From positions 620,001 through 684,000 of the forward strand of contig NC_014002.1 of NCBI RefSeq assembly GCF_000025865.1: a stretch of 64,000 bases of DNA, given 5' to 3'. Within the stretch, counting starts at the first letter, position 1. The number at the start of each line of letters is the position of its first letter. The notes beneath the pieces were generated by a model. The model was not told the origin of the DNA and did not search any database. It saw only the letters and a list, made by a program, of their open reading frames with translations. The DNA comes from Methanohalophilus mahii DSM 5219 (GTDB lineage: Archaea > Halobacteriota > Methanosarcinia > Methanosarcinales > Methanosarcinaceae). Made by a program: the position numbers and the translations under genes. This document shows, one piece after another, positions 2,393 through 23,087 of the stretch.

Positions 2393-5300
2393 ATGTCACA
2401 ACAGGTCTTTGAGTTTTCAGAGCAGCAGAAGAAAGAATTAACCGATATCTTTGGCAGTAGGGTCAACTTAAGTCGCAGGGAACGTCATTTCTATAATCAT
2501 GATGTAGGAGCTTTGCCTTCCATGGCAAAAAAACTCCTTGGAAAAGCGGAACCTGCTGCTATTGTTAAACTCAAGAATGAGGAAGATGTAATAAAACTTA
2601 TGGATTTTGCTTCTCGTTATTCAGTACCTGTGGTTCCCAGGGCTGGAGCAACATCGGGCTATGGGGGTGTGATTCCTACAAAGGGAGGAATCATTGCTGA
2701 TGTTGGCCGGTTAAACCATATATATGATATTGACAGGGAGAATCTGACAGCAACAGTCGGGGCGGGAATCGTCTGGGAAAAACTTGAATCCAAACTGAAC
2801 CATGTTGATCTTTCCGTCTGTGCCCTTCCTTCAAGTGCACCGGCAGCAACAGTTGGGGGTTGGCTCGGGCAGAACGGTCTGGGTTACGGGAGTTATGAGT
2901 ACGGTTGGTCACAGGACACAATGCTTTCCGCACGACTGATCACTCCCGGTGGTGAGGTTCGTGAGTTTGAAGGAACTGATCTGCAAAAGATTGCAGGCAA
3001 TCTGGGTGCACTTGGTATAATTACACAGGTCACGCTCAAGATACGACCACACAGGCAAACAAAAGCAGTTTCTGCAAGTTTTGAGACTCCTGCTGCTTTA
3101 CAAAAGGCTCTGCAATTGATCGCTAAACGCAACATTGCGCTCTGGTCCATATCATTTATTAATCCGGGGTTTGCGGACATGAAAAATCGTGCTCCTCAAA
3201 AATTGCACCACGGTGAACCCATAGTACTGGAGGATACCGATTTACCTGAATCCTATATATGTAACTTCTTCTATCCGGATAACAGGGATGTAGATGGTCT
3301 TGAAAATGCCATCAAAGAAGCAGGTGGTTCTATCCTTCCTGAGCAAATTTCAAAACATGAAACCGGTGAATGGTTCAGGACGATGAAAGTCAAAAGGCTT
3401 GGACCCTCTTTTATTCCCGCAGAGGTAGTAGTGCCACAGGACAAGGTAAGTAAGGTAATCGATGAAATCAATGAAAAAATATCACTGCCTGTATTGATCG
3501 AAGGGATGGTTTCCCGGGACGGCGAAGTAGTACTTCTTTGTTTCATTCCTCATTCAGAGAGATCTTTCAAGTTCAATATGGCATTCTCCCTGGGTCTTAG
3601 CATCATCAGGATCGCTGAAGATAACGGAGGCAGGATGTATGCTTCTGGTCTCTACTTTGCTGATCAGGCTGAGAAAGTTTACGGTGAAAGGCTCAAGCAA
3701 TTGATGGGTGTCAAAAAGGAGCTTGACCCTTACGATATCATGAATCCCGAGACATTTACCGGCAGGGGATTATTCACTTCCGCGCTTTCCATGGCAGGTA
3801 AAATGGAACCTCTGATGCGCCTTGTGGGTAACATGTCGGGAGTAGATAGGACTGACTTCAAAGACCAGAAAAATATTCCCGGTGACATTATTTCCCATGC
3901 ATATACATGTGCACAGTGCGGCTATTGTGTAAACGAATGTGATCAGTATTACGGGCGTGGATGGGAATCCCAATCTCCCAGGGGTAAATGGTTCTTTATC
4001 AAAGAATACCTGGCTGGAAGGGATGAGATAAATCAGGAACAAACAGATACTTTCCTTGCATGTACCACCTGTGAATTGTGTGATGTGCGGTGTCAGCTTG
4101 ATCTGCCGATTGAGAATTCATGGCTGCGTCTGAGGGAAAACCTTGTGCAGCAGCGTGGCAAAATGACTTTCCCACCATTTGAGATTATGGCTCAGAGTCT
4201 GAACAAGGAACGTAATATCTGGGCGGAATACCGTCAGGGCAGGGACGAGTGGGTTCCTGAGGACCTCAAACCCAAAATCAAGGAAAAGGCCGATTATGCC
4301 TATTTTGCAGGTTGTACGGCTTCTTTTGTGGAAAAAGATATCGCAGAAGCATCTGCTCGAATGCTTTCAGATGCCGGAATTAATTTTACGATTCTGGGTA
4401 AGGAAGAATCCTGCTGTGGTATTCCTATGCTTACAGCCGGGAAGTGGGATGTTTTCGAAAACATCATGAAAATGAATGTGGGCAACATGAAGAAAAAAGG
4501 TGTCAAAACCGTAATTACTTCCTGTCCTGCATGCTGGTTTGTGTGGCACACCTATTACCGTCAGTGGGCCGAAAAACTGGGAATTGATTATGATTTCGAG
4601 GTCAAGCACTATTCCGAAGTACTTGCTGAAAGGATGGATATAATTGGACCCAAACTCAAGGTTCCACTTGAAAAGACCGTTACAATCCATGATGCCTGCC
4701 ATATGGGGCGTGCCGGAGGTATCTATGACCCTCCCAGAAAGCTTGCAAAAGCTATTCCCGGTGTTGAATTCCGTGAGATGGAGCATAACAGGGAAAACGG
4801 ACACTGTTGTGGTTCAGTATTAACGCTGGTGGCCGAGCCGGATGTTGCCAATGTAATCGGTGGTTTGCGGCTGAAAGAAGCCGAAGCCGTGGGTGCCGAT
4901 GTTATGCTTGCTGCCTGTCCATGCTGTCAGGTGCAGCTGCGTGTGTCTGCACAGAAGAGCAATATCCCTGTGGATGTGCAGGATCTGGGTGCAACCGTGG
5001 CACGTAGTATGGGGTATGATATTGCGGATACTACAAATGATGCTCTGGCGGGCTGGGCTGTCTTTGAGCAGATGATCTATCTTATGAAACCTGAGAACAT
5101 GACCAATCTGATGATGGAACTGATGCCACAGATGATGGCAGCCATGCCTTCGTATATGAGGGGAATGATGAAAACGGTCAAATATGTACCGGGAATGGAT
5201 AAACTAATGGCGCCGATGATGCCCAGAATGATGCCGATGCTTCTGCCTTCCCTGATGCCGAAGGTCATGCCGGATATGCTTGAAGCAGTTACCCGTCATG

Positions 5301-5437
5301 TCCAGATGCCCGACTACATGGAAGAACAGCTCCCGGACCTGATGCCAAAAGCAATGGAGAATCTGATGCCCAACATGCTCCCACAGATTGCACCGCTTTT
5401 GACACCCCGGATGATAGAATACATCAAGCAGAACTAA
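2393..5437 (+). CDS. FAD-linked oxidase fused to HdrD/GlcF-type Fe-S domain, with Met-rich C-terminal tail
   Basis: Large fused flavin/iron-sulfur oxidoreductase of the D-lactate/glycolate dehydrogenase type. Residues about 50-190 are an FAD-binding (PCMH) domain (VPRAGATSGYGG; SSAPAATVGGWLGQNGLGYG). About 225-465 is the FAD-oxidase C domain, ending DPYDIMNPETFTGRG. Two [4Fe-4S] motifs follow (CAQCGYC near 505, CTTCELCDVRC near 556), then two CCG domains (ESCCGIP near 672, HCCGS near 804) as in HdrD and GlcF. The likely reaction is oxidation of a 2-hydroxyacid with electron transfer to a carrier; the substrate is unknown. Residues 894-1014 form an unexpected tail with 29 Met in 121 residues and repeated MMP/LMP units. 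A good TATA box and SD precede it and a stem-loop follows, so it is probably monocistronic. Confidence 0.9.
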   Translation: MSQQVFEFSEQQKKELTDIFGSRVNLSRRERHFYNHDVGALPSMAKKLLGKAEPAAIVKLKNEEDVIKLMDFASRYSVPVVPRAGATSGYGGVIPTKGGIIADVGRLNHIYDIDRENLTATVGAGIVWEKLESKLNHVDLSVCALPSSAPAATVGGWLGQNGLGYGSYEYGWSQDTMLSARLITPGGEVREFEGTDLQKIAGNLGALGIITQVTLKIRPHRQTKAVSASFETPAALQKALQLIAKRNIALWSISFINPGFADMKNRAPQKLHHGEPIVLEDTDLPESYICNFFYPDNRDVDGLENAIKEAGGSILPEQISKHETGEWFRTMKVKRLGPSFIPAEVVVPQDKVSKVIDEINEKISLPVLIEGMVSRDGEVVLLCFIPHSERSFKFNMAFSLGLSIIRIAEDNGGRMYASGLYFADQAEKVYGERLKQLMGVKKELDPYDIMNPETFTGRGLFTSALSMAGKMEPLMRLVGNMSGVDRTDFKDQKNIPGDIISHAYTCAQCGYCVNECDQYYGRGWESQSPRGKWFFIKEYLAGRDEINQEQTDTFLACTTCELCDVRCQLDLPIENSWLRLRENLVQQRGKMTFPPFEIMAQSLNKERNIWAEYRQGRDEWVPEDLKPKIKEKADYAYFAGCTASFVEKDIAEASARMLSDAGINFTILGKEESCCGIPMLTAGKWDVFENIMKMNVGNMKKKGVKTVITSCPACWFVWHTYYRQWAEKLGIDYDFEVKHYSEVLAERMDIIGPKLKVPLEKTVTIHDACHMGRAGGIYDPPRKLAKAIPGVEFREMEHNRENGHCCGSVLTLVAEPDVANVIGGLRLKEAEAVGADVMLAACPCCQVQLRVSAQKSNIPVDVQDLGATVARSMGYDIADTTNDALAGWAVFEQMIYLMKPENMTNLMMELMPQMMAAMPSYMRGMMKTVKYVPGMDKLMAPMMPRMMPMLLPSLMPKVMPDMLEAVTRHVQMPDYMEEQLPDLMPKAMENLMPNMLPQIAPLLTPRMIEYIKQN

Positions 5438-13645: not shown

Positions 13646-15178
13646 TTAATTGGCAACAGCAAGGTTCTCAGTAGTGGTATAGTCATCAGGTTGTGTGCGA
13701 ATCGGGAGTTGAACTGTGAATTCACTTCCCTTCCCTTTTACGCTTTCCACCAGGATTTTACCTTTGTGGCCTTCCACGATTTTCTTACAAATGTAGAGAC
13801 CGATGCCAGTTCCTCCATATTTTCTTCTGGTGGAACCATCTACCTGATAAAAGCTTTTGAAAATATTTTCCACCTTGTCTTTGGCTATTCCGATTCCTGA
13901 ATCCCTTATTTTCATCTCGACGTATTTGCCTGTTCTACTGGTGGAAACTTTTATCTTACCATTTGCGGGAGTAAATTTGATTGCATTGTCGAGTATTTGG
14001 AAAATAACATTTTTCAGTTGTGTCTCATCCGCATTTACTTGTGGAATATCTTCCAGATTTATTTCAAGTGTTAGATTATACTTTGCAAAATTAATTTTCA
14101 GTTCATCCAGGGTCTTGTTGAGAAGGGAATTTATATCTGTAGCTTCAAAATAGTATATCACATTCTGGCTACAGTCCTCACTGGCATAGAGAAGGACATT
14201 GACATGTTTTTGTAGCCTATCACAATTCCTGGTTATTGTAAGCAGGGCGTCCCTTTGTTTGCTGTTTATTTCCCCATACTCGCCTCTAGCGAGCAAATTG
14301 CTGAAACCTTTGATGGATGCAAGAGGCATCTGTAATTCCTTGCTTATATTGGCGAGAAATTCATTTCTCATTTTGTCCAGTTCCTGAAGTTCTTTATTTG
14401 CCTCTACAAGAGCCATTTCTGCCTGCTTTTTTTCGGTAATATCTTCACCGGAACTGATGGTACCCATGATTCCCCCCTGATCGTCTTTGAGTACAACATC
14501 ATGCCAGAACACCAATCGTTCCTCGCCTGTACGTGTAAGAATAGGTTTTTCAGAGAATTCGGGAGGTTCAATTTCCCCTTCCAGGACCATATTATAACCG
14601 GTCTTTATCATATCCCTTATCCTTTCCGGCAAAAAGACATCGAACCATTTCTGTCCTATTATTTCTTCCTGTGGATATCCCAGAACTTCAGAAGATTTTT
14701 TATTGGCAAGTACGACTTTCAGGTCCCTGTCAACTACGCCTATCAGTGTTTGGGCAACATCGATGTAGGTCTGTGCCTGGTCTCTTTCTTTTGCAAGTTT
14801 ATCATAAAGGGTCTTTATCTGTAGCAGGGAATTGATTCGTGTGAGAATTTCCAGGTCGTCAGATTTGTCGGTTATAAAATCATCTGCATCCTCTTTCAGA
14901 GCTGCTCTTATACATTCCCTGTCTGTTTTGGTGAACATAATTATGGGAAGATATCGATCACCTGTATTTTGCTTGATCTCCCTACAAATGCGGTAGTTGA
15001 CCTCTTCAGTCTCAGTATTGTCAATTATAACTATGCTCGGTGCATTATTTTCGATAAAAGAAATAGTATCTTCTTTGGGTTCTGCTTGTAGCACCCTGTA
15101 TGATGCAAGATATTCCAGCAAATGTTCATTATTTTTGCTGCTTAAAAGGACAATTGAAGGGATTTTTTCATCAAGCAT
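13646..15178 (-). CDS. REC-PAS-histidine-kinase-like protein lacking the phosphoacceptor His
   Basis: Soluble sensor of 510 aa. Residues 1-120 are a receiver-like domain: SIVIIDNTE carries the central Asp and MFTK the Thr, but the usual N-terminal acidic pair is missing (SIVLLSSKNN). About 135-255 is a PAS domain ending in the typical GEDITEKKQAE. About 270-335 is the dimerisation domain and 375-490 the HATPase domain, with intact N box (ILDNAIKFTP), G1 (DSGIGI) and G2 (GGTGIGLYI). The H box reads FLANISKELQMPL where families have SHELRTP, so Lys replaces the phosphorylated His at about residue 280 (codon AAG). It may bind ATP without autophosphorylating in the normal way. No membrane segment and no partner regulator gene are nearby. 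Confidence 0.88.
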   Translation of the reverse strand: MLDEKIPSIVLLSSKNNEHLLEYLASYRVLQAEPKEDTISFIENNAPSIVIIDNTETEEVNYRICREIKQNTGDRYLPIIMFTKTDRECIRAALKEDADDFITDKSDDLEILTRINSLLQIKTLYDKLAKERDQAQTYIDVAQTLIGVVDRDLKVVLANKKSSEVLGYPQEEIIGQKWFDVFLPERIRDMIKTGYNMVLEGEIEPPEFSEKPILTRTGEERLVFWHDVVLKDDQGGIMGTISSGEDITEKKQAEMALVEANKELQELDKMRNEFLANISKELQMPLASIKGFSNLLARGEYGEINSKQRDALLTITRNCDRLQKHVNVLLYASEDCSQNVIYYFEATDINSLLNKTLDELKINFAKYNLTLEINLEDIPQVNADETQLKNVIFQILDNAIKFTPANGKIKVSTSRTGKYVEMKIRDSGIGIAKDKVENIFKSFYQVDGSTRRKYGGTGIGLYICKKIVEGHKGKILVESVKGKGSEFTVQLPIRTQPDDYTTTENLAVAN

Positions 15179-15232: not shown

Positions 15233-16369
15233 TCATCCTTTAAAAATCCCTATATTATCCTTGTTTAAGACATTATCATAATTTTTATATCCCAGGATAT
15301 CTGCTATCATATTCGTATGTTTTCCCTTTATTTTCTGTAATTCATCTGAGGTATAATCCGTAATTCCTTTCCCGAATACCTGCCCGTTGCACTCGAGTTT
15401 TACTATATCTCCACGATCAAAATCACCATTTACACCAATCACACCTGAAGGCAGGAGACTCATCCGGTTTCTTACTGCATCCCTGGCTCCTTCATCTACC
15501 ATGATTGTTCCCGAGGAATGGGCAAGTAAAATCCATCGAATCCGGTTCTTATGGACTTCTCCTTCAGCTAAAAACAGGGTGCCTATTTCTTCTCCTTCCA
15601 TTATTTTCAGGATTGCATTTTGGATAGAGCTGTTTGCAATTACCATATGACAGCCTGCTATGTTGCATATCTTGGCAGCATCGATCTTTGTTCTCATGCC
15701 CCCGGTACCTTTTGTACTTGAAGGGCTCCCGCCATAACTTTCGATAGTTGGTGTAATCTCAGACACAGTTTTCAGTAATACAGCATCCTTGTGCCTTTTA
15801 GGATTTTTATCGTATAAACCATCAATATCCGATAGGAGTATCAGCAGGTCTGCTTCCATTTTGCTGGCAACCATGGCCGAAAGCCTGTCATTATCTCCGA
15901 GCGTGGCTTCTATCTCGTGAACACATGTACTGTCATTCTCATTGATAATCGGGATAACCCCATATGCCAGCAAGGTGGATATACTGTTTCTCAGGTTGAG
16001 ATAGGTTAACCTGCTGGTAAAGGAGTCATAGGTCAAAAGAATCTGGGCTACATTCAGGTCGTAAGTACTAAAAGCCTCCATCCATTTTTGCATCAAAACA
16101 TTTTGACCAACAGCTGCTGCTGCCTGTCGAACAGGAATTTCCCGCGGCTTACAGCCAAGTTGCATCAGATCAATTCCCACTCCAATAGAACCAGAGCTGA
16201 CAAGAATGACTTCTTTTTCCAGGCTGTGGAGGTATGCGATCTGTGAGGCCACATGTTTCATGAATTCCTCATTCAATCCTCCACAATCATTACTTATGGA
16301 AGTTGTTCCTATTTTGATGACAACTTTTTTAGCGTTGTCAAGGATGACTTTTCTCTTGCTCAAAATCAT
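15233..16369 (-). CDS. proB: Glutamate 5-kinase
   Basis: Phosphorylates glutamate to gamma-glutamyl phosphate, the first step of proline synthesis. The amino-acid kinase fold spans about residues 12-260, with VVIKIGTTSIS at the start, LVSSGSIGVG near 57, NENDST near 145 and KGTGGMRTK near 215. A C-terminal PUA domain spans about 280-360, as in most ProB (378 aa in total). It begins 17 bases after proA with GGGG just before the ATG, so the two form a proA-proB operon. proC is not in this window. Feedback control by proline is usual for the family but cannot be judged here. Confidence 0.96.
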   Translation of the reverse strand: MILSKRKVILDNAKKVVIKIGTTSISNDCGGLNEEFMKHVASQIAYLHSLEKEVILVSSGSIGVGIDLMQLGCKPREIPVRQAAAAVGQNVLMQKWMEAFSTYDLNVAQILLTYDSFTSRLTYLNLRNSISTLLAYGVIPIINENDSTCVHEIEATLGDNDRLSAMVASKMEADLLILLSDIDGLYDKNPKRHKDAVLLKTVSEITPTIESYGGSPSSTKGTGGMRTKIDAAKICNIAGCHMVIANSSIQNAILKIMEGEEIGTLFLAEGEVHKNRIRWILLAHSSGTIMVDEGARDAVRNRMSLLPSGVIGVNGDFDRGDIVKLECNGQVFGKGITDYTSDELQKIKGKHTNMIADILGYKNYDNVLNKDNIGIFKG

Positions 16370-16386
16370 GATCCCCGGATGTTATT

Positions 16387-17730
16387 TCAAATGATGTCAC
16401 TAATCTGTTTATCCAGTTTCCTGTGGGTAAATTGTTTTGCATTATTCCCTGCATAATCAGATACCCTGTCTCCATTACCAAGAAGAATATACTTGTATAT
16501 CAAAAGGCCTTCCATTCCTACGGGTCCACGTGCATGTATTTTGTTTGTGCTGATGCCAACCTCTGCACCTTTGCCATACCTGAAACCATCGGCAAATCTT
16601 GTAGAGGCATTGACCATGACGCTTGAGGAATCCACAAGCTCGGTAAATATGCGGCGCTTTTCCTTGTTTTCAGTAACAATACAATCTGTATGATGGGAAC
16701 CGTACCTGTTAATATGATACATTGCTTCATTTATTGAATCAACCATTTTCACAGAAAGTATCAAATCATTATATTCGGTGCTCCAGTCTTCCTCGGATGC
16801 TTTTTTCAAGCCCTGGATGCCGGTATTTTCTGCAATAGTGTATGTTTTCTCATCCAGTCGGACCTCGACACCTGCTTTGACGAATTTTTCTATCATGCCG
16901 GGCAGGAACCTGTTTGCAATATCACTGTTTACAAGCAATGTTTCCATCGCGTTGCATACTGCCGGATACTGTACTTTTGAATCATAGCAGACACCAATCG
17001 CTTTTTCTATGTCTGCTTCACTGTCCACATAGACATGGCATATCCCGTCTGCATGACCGAGTACGGGTATCCTGGTATTATCCTGTATGAACTTCACGAA
17101 AGCGTTCGAACCACGGGGTATGAGCAGGTCTATATAGGAATCAAGTGCCAGGATATCCATTACCTCTTCCCGGGTTTCCATCAGTTGAAAGGCCTTTGCA
17201 GGAATATCCCCGGTTTCTTCCAGGGCGTTTTTAAGTATGTTGAAAATAGTACGATTTGAATTTAAGGCTTCACTTCCGCCCTTAAAGATCGTTGCATTTC
17301 CGCTTTTCAGGCAGAGGGACATGATCTGTGGAACAACATCAGGACGTGACTCGAAAATAACCCCTATAAGGCCGATCGGACAACTTACCTGATACAGTTC
17401 CAGTCCTTCATCAAGCTCTAAGCAGCTGAGGGTTTTGCCTGTTGGGTCTTCAAGTTCCATGACGTCTCTTATACCTGCAATCATTCCATCGATTTTGTTA
17501 TCAGTTACTTTCAGCCTGTCCACAAGAGCCTGTGAGATTTTCCCTTGCTCTTTTAACTTCTCAGCAGATTCGAGGTCTTTGCGGTTTGCCTTAATTATTG
17601 AATTTTTATTTTTTTCAAGGGCCTGTGCCATTGCTTCAAGCCCTCTATTTTTCAGGAGTGTATTTATGCTGGCAAGTTTGATGGAGGCATCTTTTGCTGG
17701 TATGACTTTTTTCTCTGTATTATTGGTCAT
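16387..17730 (-). CDS. proA: Gamma-glutamyl phosphate reductase
   Basis: NADPH-dependent reduction of gamma-glutamyl phosphate to glutamate semialdehyde in proline synthesis. It is an aldehyde-dehydrogenase-fold protein with the catalytic Cys in QYPAVCNAMETLLV near residue 272, the conserved PIGLIGVIFESRPDV near 122, and a C-terminal RGPVGMEGL typical of ProA. Length is 447 aa, slightly over the usual 415-430 because of an N-terminal extension (MTNNTEKKVIPAKD). It is the first gene of the proAB operon and lies just downstream of the mcr operon terminator, on the same strand. Confidence 0.96.
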   Translation of the reverse strand: MTNNTEKKVIPAKDASIKLASINTLLKNRGLEAMAQALEKNKNSIIKANRKDLESAEKLKEQGKISQALVDRLKVTDNKIDGMIAGIRDVMELEDPTGKTLSCLELDEGLELYQVSCPIGLIGVIFESRPDVVPQIMSLCLKSGNATIFKGGSEALNSNRTIFNILKNALEETGDIPAKAFQLMETREEVMDILALDSYIDLLIPRGSNAFVKFIQDNTRIPVLGHADGICHVYVDSEADIEKAIGVCYDSKVQYPAVCNAMETLLVNSDIANRFLPGMIEKFVKAGVEVRLDEKTYTIAENTGIQGLKKASEEDWSTEYNDLILSVKMVDSINEAMYHINRYGSHHTDCIVTENKEKRRIFTELVDSSSVMVNASTRFADGFRYGKGAEVGISTNKIHARGPVGMEGLLIYKYILLGNGDRVSDYAGNNAKQFTHRKLDKQISDII

Positions 17731-17862: not shown

Positions 17863-19584
17863 TTATTTGGCCGGGATGATGAGGGATCTCTCACCAGCAG
17901 GCTCGAACTCACGAAGCGCACCGCGTCCGAACTCCTTCCTTGGCTGAGAGAAGTCGAATGGGAGCATTTCGTCGGCGAAACAGACCTTGATCAGTGGGTT
18001 GAGTGCGTATGCATCTCCACGACCGGCGTGTGCTCCTGCTGCGATTGCAGCGTAGCCACCCTGGTGACCGACGTTCATTGCGTAGTTCGGGTAGTTTGGA
18101 CCACGGAGTTCGTGGGGCAGACCTTCGTCGGATTGGTAGGAGAAGGTGTTGGTTGCACCACACTGGTCCTGCAAGTCGAATCCGAAGAATCCCAGACGTC
18201 CGTGACCTTCCTTGTGCAGGTACATACAGAGATACCATGCGGAGAGACCAGCGTTTGCGTTACCGGTTGCAAGGGATCCTGCGCTACCAGCAGCTGCAGA
18301 CAGGACGGTTGCTCTCTGAGATCCACCAAAGTGGTCTTCAAGGGCAACTGGGTATTTCTCGTAGTTCTCGAGACCGTAGAGTGTGGACTCTGTTGCGATG
18401 TCCTTGATAACATCCATGCTTGGGGCGACCTTGTTGTCGATACCCTTCTCAGCTGCACCATCGTACTTGTCGTTGATGTATTCAACGTCATAGTACAGGT
18501 TGTCATCCAGAATATTGTTGGTGTATGCAGCAGTGGAGTACTGGGTAAAACCGACACCACCGGACATGTAGGATCCGAGCCAGATCTGGTCGTAGAGCAT
18601 ACATCCTGCACCGACTACCTCAAGGGTTACGTTTGCAGGATCATCTGGGTTTACACGGCTGGTCTGGACAATATCTGAGAGGTTACCAAAGGTGACACCA
18701 CCAGGTTCGTTTGGTGCACGTGCACGTCTTGCAGGGAGCATGTCACCCATGTTGACAACACCTGCGTGCTTTGCTGCATAGGAAAGGTCTGCTACAGCTG
18801 CTTCACCGGCACACATTCCGTAGGCTGCAATGTAGGACATACCGATCTGCATTGCAGTCCACCTTGTGGTCTGACCACCGTCTGTTGTTCTGGATACGAT
18901 GGTTGGGATGTGGGCAGCCTGCCAGGTAGTATTGCCGATTGAGGCTTTGAGCTGTTCTGCCTGTTCTGCAGGGAACTGTTTGTCGATGTCGATGAGGAAC
19001 TGGTCATCGATCTCGTCTGCAAGTTCATCGTCACCTGTGAATATTTTCACATAACAGTCATCGACGAGTGCAGGGTGGCTCTCTACCATGTGTTCCTGAA
19101 CAACTGCACCGCCAGGGAGTGCGTGGTTGAGCACTTCGAGGTAGTGGTTGATTGTTTCAGGGGTTACCTCGATACTCAGTCTTTTTTCGAGGGTTTCGTG
19201 GGCCATATCCATACCGACAATACATGTTCTGCGTATGTCGTCCCACATCTGCTGCATTGCAGCGTTGTTGACATAGTGAAGGTCATCATTTTCGACCATC
19301 ATGTCATCATTACCGGATATGAAGGATGGTGTCAGAGCTCTCTGACCGAGAGGGATACCACCGCAGTGCATCATTGGGTTGTATCCTGCAAGACCCCTCT
19401 TTTCTGCAATATCCTTACCGACTTTCTTCATTTCCAGTTTCCTGGGGTTCTGGTCGACACCGAGGCGGTAATATGGAATTCTCATATCTGTAATATCGCC
19501 GCCTTCCATCTTGTTGGTGCCGTGCTCCTTTGTGAATTTAACTTCTAAATCTTTCTGGAACATTCTCTTTCTGTCGTCTGCCAT
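17863..19584 (-). CDS. mcrA: Methyl-coenzyme M reductase alpha subunit
   Basis: Large subunit of Mcr, which makes methane and CoM-S-S-CoB from methyl-CoM and coenzyme B using nickel cofactor F430. The enzyme is an (alpha beta gamma)2 hexamer in the cytoplasm. Diagnostic regions are intact: [20 protein letters not shown], the GLENYEKYP and [13 protein letters not shown] stretches, [26 protein letters not shown] (the usual mcrA amplicon, with sites of post-translational modification), and [13 protein letters not shown]. The start is ATG at 19582-19584 because AGGAG sits eight bases upstream; an upstream in-frame GTG would overlap that SD. This gives 573 aa. It follows mcrG by five bases and ends the operon. 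Confidence 0.99.
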
Positions 19585-19589
19585 TTTAC

Positions 19590-20345
19590 TCACTCCTGTA
19601 CAGCTGGCTTGTATCCATACATAGTTCTCTGTTCAAAGACCCTGTGTACCCATTCGAGGACTTCCTTGTCCTCCCTGTATGGGACATTGTCTACACGGTA
19701 GATTGTGGTCCTTTTTGCAGCTTCCTCATCGGACATTGGTTTTCCGAGGTCGACCTTCTTGTCGATTGGTCTTCCTACCTGGTCCTTCTGGACAATGATG
19801 GTTCCGTTTTCCAGACGTACCCTTTCGAGCATGTCAAACATTACGCCATCTTCCTGAAGACGGAGGGAGTGACCGTGTACACTGGCACCACGCAGGCATG
19901 CAAGTGCAGGGCAGGTCATTTCGGTTTCAAGCTGGAATTTTGCAAGTTCTTCCATGTCCCTCTCACGCGCTTCAACGACCTGACGGCCGGAAAGTGTACC
20001 TGGGTCTACGCCTCTGAAGTTAATTGCAGTGTTGTAGGACCTGAAGTATGGGGTGGAAGGTGCATTGTACATTGAGTCTACAAACTGTACGTACCTGATT
20101 CTGTCACCTGCTTTTGCACCATCTGTAGGTTCGACCATTTCACGGATGGAACATTCTGGTTCGCCCATTTCCGCCAGTGGTGGGTGGGTGCTTGGGTAAT
20201 CTGTACCGGGAACACGGTGTCCGAGAATAATGGTTAAGTCATCATCAGAGATTTCCCTGAGTTTTTCGACTTTACCGGACATGTGTTTCCTTCTATTTTC
20301 CGCAACACTTGTTGCTCCGGGATAAAACTGTGCTTCATATGTCAT
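19590..20345 (-). CDS. mcrG: Methyl-coenzyme M reductase gamma subunit
   Basis: Small subunit of Mcr, contributing to the F430 and coenzyme pockets. The N-terminus [20 protein letters not shown] and the later [22 protein letters not shown] are diagnostic for McrG. I chose the ATG at 20343-20345 over a TTG eight codons upstream: AAAGGAG lies about nine bases before it and family proteins begin M-x-Y-E-A-Q. That gives 251 aa. It lies four bases from mcrC and five from mcrA in the BDCGA order. Confidence 0.98.
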
Positions 20346-20349
20346 ATGA

Positions 20350-20961
20350 TTACACTCCTTTGTTATCAATTGATTTCATTGTGAATTTCACTGCTTTGAC
20401 GAGTTCGTTTAACTTGTCTCTAGAACAAGTTTCTCCTCGCGTCACTCCAGTCACAATCTCCATTACTTTTCCCTTTGTCTGGATATTTTTATCTTGAGGT
20501 TTTACCAATCTAGTATGGATACCGGCCTTTGCAAAATCTTCAAAGTCCACGATTGTCTGACAGACAACCACTGCCGGCACTTCTGCATAGACCAATATTT
20601 CCCTTACTTTCCTGACAACATGATCACGAATGTTTCCTGTATGAATGACTGCCATCTTGTGTCGATTTATCTGTCTGATCTCCTCCGGGTTTATACCGAA
20701 GGAACCGGATTTCATCTGTTCATCGGGAACTCCTGATCCCGAATTGAGCACAAGCACACTCACCTGTATGTCTTCTTTGCGCATTCCGTAAGTAAGTTCA
20801 CAAACAGGCTTGGTGATATGGCGTCTTCCGGGACTCATAGCGACTGCGACTACGTCGGTCCTGCCGGCTTCGGAAAGCGTGCCTCTCTGGGCCAGTCCGC
20901 CTCCTTTGCCAAGGCCCATTCCGTGTCTGCAATCTACAACCTGTGTTTCCCGGTCAAACAT
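20350..20961 (-). CDS. mcrC: Methyl-coenzyme M reductase operon protein C
   Basis: Not a subunit of the purified enzyme. McrC has been reported as a component of the ATP-dependent system that reductively activates Mcr (Ni to the +1 state). The protein begins MFDRETQVVDCRHGMGLGKGGGLAQRG, characteristic of the family, and continues with MSPGRRHITKPVCELTYG and VLNSGSGVPDEQMKSGSFG. Length is 203 aa, as usual. It sits between mcrD and mcrG, with a six-base gap on one side and four on the other, so its stoichiometry is tied to the structural genes by the shared transcript. Confidence 0.97.
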   Translation of the reverse strand: MFDRETQVVDCRHGMGLGKGGGLAQRGTLSEAGRTDVVAVAMSPGRRHITKPVCELTYGMRKEDIQVSVLVLNSGSGVPDEQMKSGSFGINPEEIRQINRHKMAVIHTGNIRDHVVRKVREILVYAEVPAVVVCQTIVDFEDFAKAGIHTRLVKPQDKNIQTKGKVMEIVTGVTRGETCSRDKLNELVKAVKFTMKSIDNKGV

Positions 20962-20967
20962 CTGGAA

Positions 20968-21462
20968 TCATTCCTTTTCATTTGTTCTCAGGAGGTTTAC
21001 CTGTGATTCGACCTTGCTTTTCGGGTCATAAAGACCGTATAGTGCAGGATCGGCTGTAGGGCCTCTTTTTGCATAATCTGAAACAGTTTGCCTTGTCTGG
21101 ATGAAACGCCCTTCCCTAATGTCATAACCGCAGGGAAGTGTGTCTTCACAAATTGCATTTATTTCTTCCATGATTTCCTTTCCGGCAAGTTCCAGTGTAA
21201 TCCTTCCCACAAGTACTTCCAGACCCATTTCGGTCTTACCAAAATGTACATTTGTCCTTGATGGATGATGTACGGGTGTTCCGACAGCAGGTCCGAAGGG
21301 TACTTTTGTAGGCAGGCGCGGCCCCTGTATGAATGCCCTTTGTATACCTTCAAGACTGCAAAGTTTATTGAGCAGCCCCTCTACGGTATCGGGTTTAATC
21401 ATACGTTTTGGGAATATCTCGATCTGTATGGGCTTTTTTGTGTCTGAAGCAGAAGTTTCCAT
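20968..21462 (-). CDS. mcrD: Methyl-coenzyme M reductase operon protein D
   Basis: Accessory protein that interacts with Mcr; a role in assembly or cofactor delivery has been proposed. Family features include QIEIFPKRMIKPDTVEGLLNKL near the N-terminus, IQGPRLP, and GPAVGTPVHHPSRTNVHFG. I start at ATG 21460-21462 (METSASDTKK), with AAGGT upstream, rather than the TTG five codons earlier. The protein is 164 aa. It follows mcrB by 29 bases, the largest gap inside the operon. Confidence 0.96.
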   Translation of the reverse strand: METSASDTKKPIQIEIFPKRMIKPDTVEGLLNKLCSLEGIQRAFIQGPRLPTKVPFGPAVGTPVHHPSRTNVHFGKTEMGLEVLVGRITLELAGKEIMEEINAICEDTLPCGYDIREGRFIQTRQTVSDYAKRGPTADPALYGLYDPKSKVESQVNLLRTNEKE

Positions 21463-21491
21463 TATTGGTACCTTCAATCTTTGTGACTCAT

Positions 21492-22796
21492 TTAGAGTGA
21501 TTCAGCGACTGCTTTTATTGGTTCTCTGAATTCTTTGATTGAACCGAATACATCACCTATGAGGCCGGATGTTTTCTCGATGGAGAACATCTGGGTACCT
21601 GCATCAAGTGATACACCAGCGGATACACATGGAATTGCGAATCCTCTTGAGTGTCTGGTTACAATGTGGTTACCGTTGAATACACCGGGACCACCGCCAC
21701 CATAGATAGAGTGGCTAAAGAATGAGAATCCTACAGCAGTACCCTGTGCCCTACCCATGTCACAGCCAGGCAGGCCAGTTTCTTTCTCAATGATATCGTT
21801 GTAATACAGAATTGTGGATGACACATTCTGGGCAGCCCTGCCTGCAGCACAGTTGACCATTGTAGCGGCAAGCTGGCCTGCTGCAGCATAAGCATTCCAC
21901 ATGGATACATCCTGTGCCTTGTAGAAGTTGTAACCTGAAGGAGCTGTCTTGTCAACTTCGATTACATTGTCCTCAATTGCTCTTTCAACAACAGACTGTA
22001 CTACGGTACCGACAGTTCCGTCTTTACCATTGTCTTTTACGAGATCGTATACTACGTTGTTGGCGTTAAGGCCCTGGCATGCAAATCCAAGAAGCTGATG
22101 TCTCTCGAATTCTCCGACTGCATTACCCATTTCGAACATACCTGCCTGTTCGAAGATGGAAGACAGTGCGGCTGCATTCATTGCTTTTTTCTCTGTAATT
22201 GCAGCAATGTGGTTGGTCATGATGTTTCTCAGGGAGTAACCCAGACCTTCATTCTTCTGTGGAATGTTCAGGATTGAAGCGATGTTTCCGCCGGCCATAT
22301 CCATTGTCTGTGGGTAGTTACCCCATACTGCTCCTTTGACCACAGGTGCGTTGAACATGTCAATGTTGAACATATCAACAATGGTCTGGACGGTTGCTGC
22401 TGCACTTACTGTGAGTGCGGAAGAGTAGTCAGCACCGGCAGTGAGCCTTGCGGTTGGAAGCTGAACAAGAAGTTGTTTGCCGCCACCAAGAGTCTCGATG
22501 TTGGTGTCATCGTCACTGTCTACCTGTACAAATTCTTTTACGGAGTCTGCAATTGCACCAGCGTTTTCCACAATATCGAGTTCCATTTCACGTCCCGGCA
22601 TGTGACGAGCCTTTCCGCCCATCTTACCGGTTGCGAGAGATTTTTGAATACCTCCCAGGTTGACTGCTACAGTCCTCTTTGTGTCTCCGATGATACGCTG
22701 AATTGCCGCGTTCCTTGTAGGAGCGAGCTCTTCAATTGCAACGCCGCTTTCTAAGAGTTTTCCTCTATCGTCGTAGATGTCTATTTTGTCAGACAC
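21492..22796 (-). CDS. mcrB: Methyl-coenzyme M reductase beta subunit
   Basis: Beta subunit of Mcr and first gene of mcrBDCGA. The protein starts (V)[17 protein letters not shown], as in all McrB. It carries the conserved [15 protein letters not shown] and a C-terminal [21 protein letters not shown] region that lines the active site. The start is GTG at 22794-22796, seven bases after a full AAAGGAGG. The open frame runs 19 codons further upstream, but that part ([13 protein letters not shown]) contains the SD and has no counterpart in the family. Length is 434 aa. Confidence 0.98.
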
Positions 22797-23087
22797 GTAT
22801 TTTCCTCCTTTAATTTTTTTGTAATGGAAAGAAAATCCCCATTTGGAAAGCAACCACGCTTGAGCGAGGATATGCTGTAAGCACTTTCAGGGTGAGAATG
22901 CCTTCCAGTCGGTTTTCTTTAATTTATTCATGTCAGCAATGGAGTTTTTGCCTTTAAAACTTTTGCATTCGTTTTTTTGGTCTGAACGATATACAATGAT
23001 TATTCATGATGTATAATTAATTGCATTTGATTTTTTATGTAATTAACCACAAAGATTTAGTAATATCTTTTTCTACCACTTGGTCAC
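22797..23087. promoter_or_regulatory. Divergent control region between mcrB and mmp10
   Basis: A 291-base non-coding stretch separates mcrB (minus) from mmp10 (plus), so both promoters must lie here. Near mcrB is the strong SD AAAGGAGG. The far half, 22970-23060, is very AT-rich with possible TATA elements for the minus strand (revcomp TTAATTATACATC near 23015; TTGTATATCG near 22995). If these are used, the mcr leader is about 180-200 nt long. CGCTTGAGCG near 22857 is a tight inverted repeat within that leader. Exact start sites cannot be fixed by eye. Confidence 0.55.

Follow-up and report, generated by a model that had tools for sequence, protein, structure and literature searches.

Can a histidine kinase that has exchanged its phosphoacceptor histidine for another residue still take part in phosphotransfer and, if so, with which partner? 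This question is raised by a gene in a 64,000-nucleotide stretch of the genome of the archaeon Methanohalophilus mahii DSM 5219 (positions 620,001 to 684,000 of contig NC_014002.1; hereafter, the window). The encoded protein, denoted A, has Lys at the phosphoacceptor site. Here we describe a paralog of A, denoted B, with a mirror-image pattern of losses, and propose, at about even odds (probability of roughly 0.5), that A and B are halves of an ancestral kinase that was split by duplication and complementary decay, such that A would phosphorylate the His of B.

Domain organization of A and its substituted H box

The gene and its parts are located in the window as follows.

13646..15178, minus strand: protein A, 510 amino acids, REC-PAS-HisKA-HATPase, His-less (open reading frame and Pfam)
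14834..15130, minus strand: receiver domain (residues 17-115), with Ser-Ser as the acidic pair and Asp53 retained
15022-15020, minus strand: codon of Asp53 in the receiver
14426..14755, minus strand: PAS domain (residues 142-251; Pfam PAS_4)
14183..14371, minus strand: HisKA/DHp domain (residues 270-332)
14339..14341, minus strand: AAG codon of Lys280, at the site of the phosphoacceptor His
14327..14329, minus strand: Met284, at the Thr position of the HExxT phosphatase motif
13697..14029, minus strand: HATPase_c domain (residues 384-494), with intact N, G1, F, and G2 motifs

Active kinases of the HisKA type combine a phosphoacceptor His with the N, G1, F, and G2 ATP-binding motifs. The window's A lacks the former and contains all of the latter, which are intact in all 17 orthologs (this one included). 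Its H box, FLANISKELQMPL, remains recognizable around Lys280, and the adjacent E281 is kept in 17 of 17. The Pfam scores of A are 30.7 bits for Response_reg (cut-off 30.2), 42.1 bits for HisKA, and 105.2 bits for HATPase_c. The first-pass annotation of this locus was correct in placing Lys at the phosphoacceptor site and in counting at least two base changes from a His codon (AAG, at 14341-14339, is two changes away from CAT or CAC); its observations that the ATP-binding boxes are intact and that the receiver keeps its Asp but lacks the acidic pair also hold. Among the 20 HisKA matches in the window's genome, 19 have His at this site, A being the sole exception.

Sequencing error, which had been judged unlikely, is ruled out: Lys (AAG) is present in a second species at 85% identity and Arg (AGG) in three species at 84%, and a broken remnant of A in yet another genome (G004) still carries AAG at the site.

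Orthologs of A in three genera

We searched for A in 40 relatives, 111 genomes of the family, and 185 genomes of the order, with one genome per species. The 17 orthologs, including the one in the window, were detected with E-values of 1e-110 or lower and belong to three genera, denoted g1 (the window's own genus), g13, and g3. In the alignment of these proteins with one His-bearing outgroup protein, L010 (alignment A1), the phosphoacceptor site is occupied by Lys in 2, Arg in 4, Tyr in 7, and His in 4. The four His-keeping proteins comprise one subclade of g3; because the His is kept, A may be a complete kinase in these four genomes. The first-pass annotation proposed to check whether Lys is conserved and regarded His in orthologs as evidence against its reading. 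It is the absence of His that is conserved (13 of 17), not Lys itself, and the exceptions are confined to a single subclade of another genus. The site is encoded by AAG for Lys, AGG or CGG for Arg, TAT or TAC for Tyr, and CAT for His, so that, judging from the codons, a path from His to Lys by way of Arg, one base at a time, is possible. As we read the tree, either His was lost two or more times or it was lost once and regained once.

The residues involved in ATP binding, Asn398, Asp426, Gly428, Gly430, Phe440, and Phe443, along with GxGxGL, are invariant in all 17 proteins, and the reading frames, of 505-525 residues, are all uninterrupted. The receiver Asp is found only in the five core species of g1, where the acidic pair is Ser-Ser. 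At the Thr position of HExxT, there is Met in the window, Ile in four relatives, and Thr in the other 12 proteins. Accordingly, the phosphatase role suggested in the first-pass annotation, as the only role of A, is disfavored in the five core species, in which the phosphatase Thr is gone as well, and is possible in the 12 others.

A shifted phosphoacceptor was considered and rejected: no His in the DHp domain is common to all A proteins, and those present in the second helix of some lie outside the H box. The same observation bears on the possibility that another residue, for example, the Tyr of the g3 and g13 forms, is phosphorylated instead of His. Although Tyr occupies the exact site in 7 of the 17 proteins, we find this very improbable, given the Lys or Arg in the remaining six His-less ones; moreover, the Tyr autophosphorylation once reported for RdmS, a Methanosarcina acetivorans kinase homolog, is now described by its authors as apparently unspecific (PMC11784639).

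The genes next to A, with names assigned by reading the translations, are conserved as well.

15233..17730, minus strand: homologs of proB and proA, directly upstream of A and on the same strand
17863..22853, minus strand: homologs of mcrA, G, C, D, and B, the synteny anchor

The gene order mcrB-D-C-G-A, proA, proB, A was found in the window and in 16 of the 16 other neighborhoods examined, that of G019 being truncated by a contig that starts inside mcrA. A search of contigs with protein A, from which close relatives were possibly excluded, yielded 35 loci, bacterial by title, with a best identity of 35% and no methanogens among them.

A paralog with mirror-image losses

Among the best non-orthologous matches of A, we identified full-length homologs in which SHELRTP or NHELRTP is intact and the ATPase domain is damaged. 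The copy in the window's genome, G000, lies outside the window.

G000:C1:1919217-1920683, plus strand: paralog B

With the G000 copy as the query, B was detected in 18 of the 111 genomes of the family, namely, all 17 that encode A plus G049. Both genes are thus present in 17 of the 18 genomes that have either one; B occurs alone in one genome and A alone in none. The assembly of G049 is 76% complete, and proB was also not found in it, with a query that matched in each of four other genomes. The flanking genes of B are ygiQ-like and glcF-like (names by reading) in 16 of the 18 stretches; the remaining two are cut on one side by the end of a contig, after B in G019, where B itself is incomplete and runs off the contig, and before ygiQ in G053. 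Separate glcD-like and glcF-like genes (by reading) adjoin B, unlike in the window, where a 1014-residue reading frame (2393-5437, plus strand) encodes an FAD-binding domain fused to cysteine-rich CCG domains.

In the phylogenetic tree, which was built without row O_G006p, A and B are sister clades (support of 89/85 for A and 100/99 for B) that are split from the outgroup rows with support of 99/97. Given this topology, A and B look like duplicates that predate the three genera. Identity between A and B of the same genome peaks in the DHp domain, at a mean of 0.50.

The conserved motifs are distributed between the two clades in opposite ways. GxGxGL of the G2 box and Phe443 are each present in 17 of 17 A and 0 of 18 B, whereas HELRTP is present in 4 of 17 A and 18 of 18 B, and the receiver Asp in 5 of 17 and 18 of 18, respectively (the tallies include B of G055, a 463-residue frame absent from alignment A2). 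Judging by sequence, ATP use and the acceptor His would reside on different proteins in 13 of the 17 pairs; in the other four, A keeps its His.

The ATPase domain of B is not equally eroded in all genera. Asp426 of the G1 box is retained in 11 of the 18 B proteins, all from g3, and the N-box Asn and DxGxG are kept in 11 of 11 g3 members, which therefore may have some residual ATP binding. HATPase_c scores are 103.6-108.0 bits for A (6 of 17 scored) and, for B, 16.8-30.7 bits in g1 and g13 (5 of 7 scored) and 60.3-77.5 bits in g3 (10 of 11 scored), with ten of the B scores derived from the last 170 residues only and the others from whole proteins. Ordered INTERMEDIATES, the B scores are 74.5-77.5 bits where A has His (3 of 4 scored), 60.3-70.7 bits where A has Tyr in g3 (6 of 6 scored), and 16.8-30.7 bits where A has Lys, Arg, or Tyr in g1 and g13 (5 of 7 scored). 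This ordering is a picture of the route and not independent evidence, as it involves three clades and mixes whole and partial proteins. B of G049, the genome with B alone, scores 72.7 bits.

On the receiver side, the mirror image is weaker. Receiver scores of A are 30.7-56.4 bits in five proteins, with none listed for a sixth, from G006, and those of B are 52.3-102.9 bits in the five scored; in G009, they are reversed (56.4 bits for A versus 52.3 bits for B). The receiver of B is itself imperfect: its acidic pair is Asp-Asp in no more than 6 of the 18 proteins, although 16 of 18 retain the first Asp; Lys is present in 16 of 18, with Arg in the other 2, and Thr or Ser in 16 of 18.

In the predicted structural models, which both retain the strands and helices around the ATP lid, the place of the lid is taken in A by 31 residues, partly of low confidence, that link a strand whose last residue is 426 to a helix that begins at 458, and in B by 19 residues that link a strand whose last residue is 431 to a helix that begins at 451 (mean pLDDT of 68.9 for A and 77.8 for B; pTM of 0.40 each).

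Complementary substitution rates

In the five core genomes of g1, dN/dS values for A are 0.34 in REC, 0.07 in PAS, 0.25 in DHp, and 0.21-0.22 in the catalytic domain (CA); the respective values for B are 0.16, 0.16, 0.09-0.10, and 0.39-0.40, the CA value of 0.39 being obtained with the domain cut at residue 448 to exclude the 3' end that is altered in G005. Within the core genus, PAS is the most conserved part of A, and the receiver has the highest dN/dS among its domains. Bootstraps of dN exclude zero for REC and DHp, both faster in A; the CA difference, with a log2 of -0.70 (-1.47 to 0.09), does not exclude it.

Across the 17 shared genomes, amino-acid distances show REC evolving faster in A (0.28; 0.07-0.49) and CA faster in B (-0.45; -0.67 to -0.24), with a DHp difference of 0.34 (-0.07 to 0.75) that does not exclude zero. 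The ratio of CA/DHp in B to CA/DHp in A has a log2 of 0.78 (95% bootstrap interval of 0.32-1.26; 17 genomes), and the contrast also excludes zero in g3 (0.05-1.99) and in g1 with g13 (0.37-1.38); the receiver difference within g3, 0.21 (-0.11 to 0.53), does not. Both genes were compared over an identical set of genomes, so that sampling does not account for the contrast. In each of the three genome sets, PAS evolves more slowly in A than in B, which fits A being the sensor half. Decay and substitution rates are thus complementary: A conserves the ATPase domain and erodes the His and the receiver, and B does the reverse.

The retained parts are under purifying selection: in the core genus, the A gene as a whole has a dN/dS of 0.23, and in g3, its DHp and CA domains have values of 0.03-0.21. 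These values, the open frames in all 17 genomes, and the invariant ATP motifs argue against the notion that A is a decaying gene heading for loss, which we consider highly unlikely even though its receiver has the highest dN/dS among its domains and the gene is a broken remnant in one genome and absent from another.

Joint loss of A and B in two genomes

The genomes in question are G004 and G002. G004, which is close to the window's species, contains remnants of both genes at their home loci: a broken 201-base remnant of A (L178:9714-9914), with proB on one side and ccm-like genes on the other, and a 201-base remnant of B between ygiQ and glcF (L192:5149-5349). In G002, neither A nor B was found at the two home loci. 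In the species tree, G002 is placed beside G006 (support of 100) and G004 among the core species, where the forks are weak, so that the two genomes are on separate branches; by branch length, the chance of joint loss in both is about 0.001.

As proof of a link between A and B, this joint loss seemed strong and was dropped after comparison with the turnover of other kinases. Among the other HisKA genes of G000, 5 of 18 have an ortholog with at least 80% identity in G004 and 13 of 18 do not; among those of G006, 3 of 28 have one with at least 60% identity in G002 and 25 of 28 do not (30 loci of 37 matches). Histidine kinases are gained or lost rapidly between G002 and its sister species G006, with 8 HisKA matches in the former versus 37 in the latter. 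Because most other HisKA genes likewise lack counterparts in G004 or G002, the joint loss is nearly uninformative on a link, being of little use either for or against it.

A putative split kinase and its rivals

In the mechanism that we propose, A, with its catalytic domain and conserved PAS, would bind ATP and not phosphorylate itself at the usual site, and B, with its own ATPase domain apparently damaged or dead, would contribute the phosphoacceptor His of its HELRTP box and the receiver Asp. A and B would either dimerize, with their related DHp helices as the interface, or come together as a pair of homodimers; the catalytic domain of A would phosphorylate the His of B in trans, and the phosphate would then move to the receiver of B or to a separate receiver protein, the putative downstream target. 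The intact HExxT box of B could also serve as a phosphatase, and the PAS domain of A is the best candidate sensor of the presumed signal. The location of A and B at separate loci counts against a split kinase, as do the His of A in 4 of 17 genomes, the possible residual ATP binding by B in g3, and the imperfect receiver of B. The first-pass annotation, which regarded A as a pseudokinase, an ATP-bound sensor, or a scaffold, pointed to the right region of possibilities, within which a paralog with mirror-image losses shifts the probable reading to one half of a split kinase.

We more tentatively suggest, at somewhat less than even odds, that A and B form an obligate heterodimeric HisKA-type split kinase that arose in archaea by stepwise decay, with intermediates still alive. 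The first putative intermediate would be an A with His together with a B whose ATPase domain is partly degenerate (the His subclade of g3); the second, an A with Tyr and a lower-scoring B (the Tyr subclade of g3); and the end state, an A with Lys, Arg, or Tyr and a B without the G1 and G2 boxes (g1 and g13).

The main rival to the split kinase is that A is a stand-alone pseudokinase similar to DivL of Caulobacter and other alpha-proteobacteria, with a DHp domain that docks or senses a phosphorylated receiver or allosterically regulates another kinase, and that B is a separate phosphotransfer or receiver protein served by other kinases. DivL is a HisKA-HATPase protein with PAS and a conserved non-His residue, Tyr, at the phosphoacceptor site, which weakly binds an ATP analog and senses DivK~P (PMC4211667). 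Tyr is also found in 7 of 17 A orthologs, although the window has Lys, and DivL (PDB 4q20) turns up when A is compared by sequence and by fold (E-value of 2.6e-35 in one comparison, rank 34 in the other); B, for its part, resembles the archaeal 'HisKA, no HATPase' proteins described in a 2018 census (PMC5847659). Nevertheless, we consider this rival unlikely. A, in contrast to the weakly binding DivL, keeps all tested ATP motifs in 17 of 17 orthologs; a dN/dS of 0.06-0.21 in its ATPase domain would be hard to explain without ATP use; and the mirror-image losses in the sister paralog would be left unexplained. A also differs from DivL in having an N-terminal receiver, a site that varies among Lys, Arg, and Tyr, and a mirror-image paralog.

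It is less probable still, and in our view improbable, that A hydrolyzes ATP as a kinase for a partner other than B, in the manner of the M. acetivorans type-2 proteins RdmS and MsmS. These 'MA_type 2' archaeal kinase homologs lack a phosphoacceptor and keep ATP binding, and RdmS, from the same archaeal family, hydrolyzes ATP without autophosphorylation and is suggested by its authors to phosphorylate another signaling partner (PMC11784639). However, the H box is described there as wholly absent, whereas A has a substituted residue in a box that is otherwise kept and scores 42.1 bits as HisKA, with E281 in 17 of 17.

Relation to known systems

With A and B read as a split kinase, the closest working analog is CheA3/CheA4 of Rhodobacter sphaeroides, and DivL is the closest look-alike of A alone. 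In CheA3/CheA4, ATP use resides on one protein and the acceptor His and phosphatase on the other, and the HExxT phosphatase motif is named in the same paper (PMC3591291). That pair is of the CheA type, whereas the putative pair described here is of the HisKA type. Furthermore, A and B each keep a copy of every domain and have diverged through decay at single sites and in motifs, whereas in CheA3/CheA4 whole domains are missing.

Other known proteins share parts of the pattern. The archaeal REC-HisK proteins have the order REC-PAS-HisKA-HATPase, and B approaches the 'HisKA, no HATPase' class, with the difference that B keeps a recognizable ATPase scaffold in most scored species and that no paired partner is described for that class in the sections of the census consulted (PMC5847659). 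According to the census, no archaeal REC-HisK protein had been characterized experimentally by 2018, and the partners of REC-PAS/GAF-HisKA proteins without an ATPase domain remained unknown (PMC5847659). ChrS and HrrS of Corynebacterium glutamicum are paralogous kinases with native heterodimerization and a functional pseudokinase form; however, the pseudokinase is a product of laboratory evolution, phosphotransfer does not involve its His, and there are no mirror-image losses (PMC9491836).

A His-less HisKA protein (DivL), archaeal ATP-binding kinases without an H box (RdmS/MsmS), and split kinases (CheA) are thus already known. A mirror-image HisKA pair in archaea was not found among the top matches listed in a search of the open literature, nor were full-length HisKA-type paralogs that had divided a kinase between them through complementary point decay. 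If the proposal is true, this would be a natural archaeal HisKA-type split kinase with surviving intermediates, which would show a one-protein enzyme turning into two mutually dependent ones and provide a testable partner in a little-studied protein class. A plain 'histidine kinase' label on A or B would mask that neither looks complete.

In-frame stop codons and altered ends

Two B genes have irregular frames. In G055 (L144:6081-7469), there is an in-frame TAG, beyond which the frame is open, and in G005 (L140:9736-11301), the 3' end is altered; both changes fall in the ATPase domain, the one that is being lost from B. Pyrrolysine can be encoded by TAG in these archaea. A HisKA match elsewhere in the window's genome (L172, G000:C1:1470136-1470324, minus strand) also has an in-frame TAG, inside the domain, and may represent either read-through or a broken gene.
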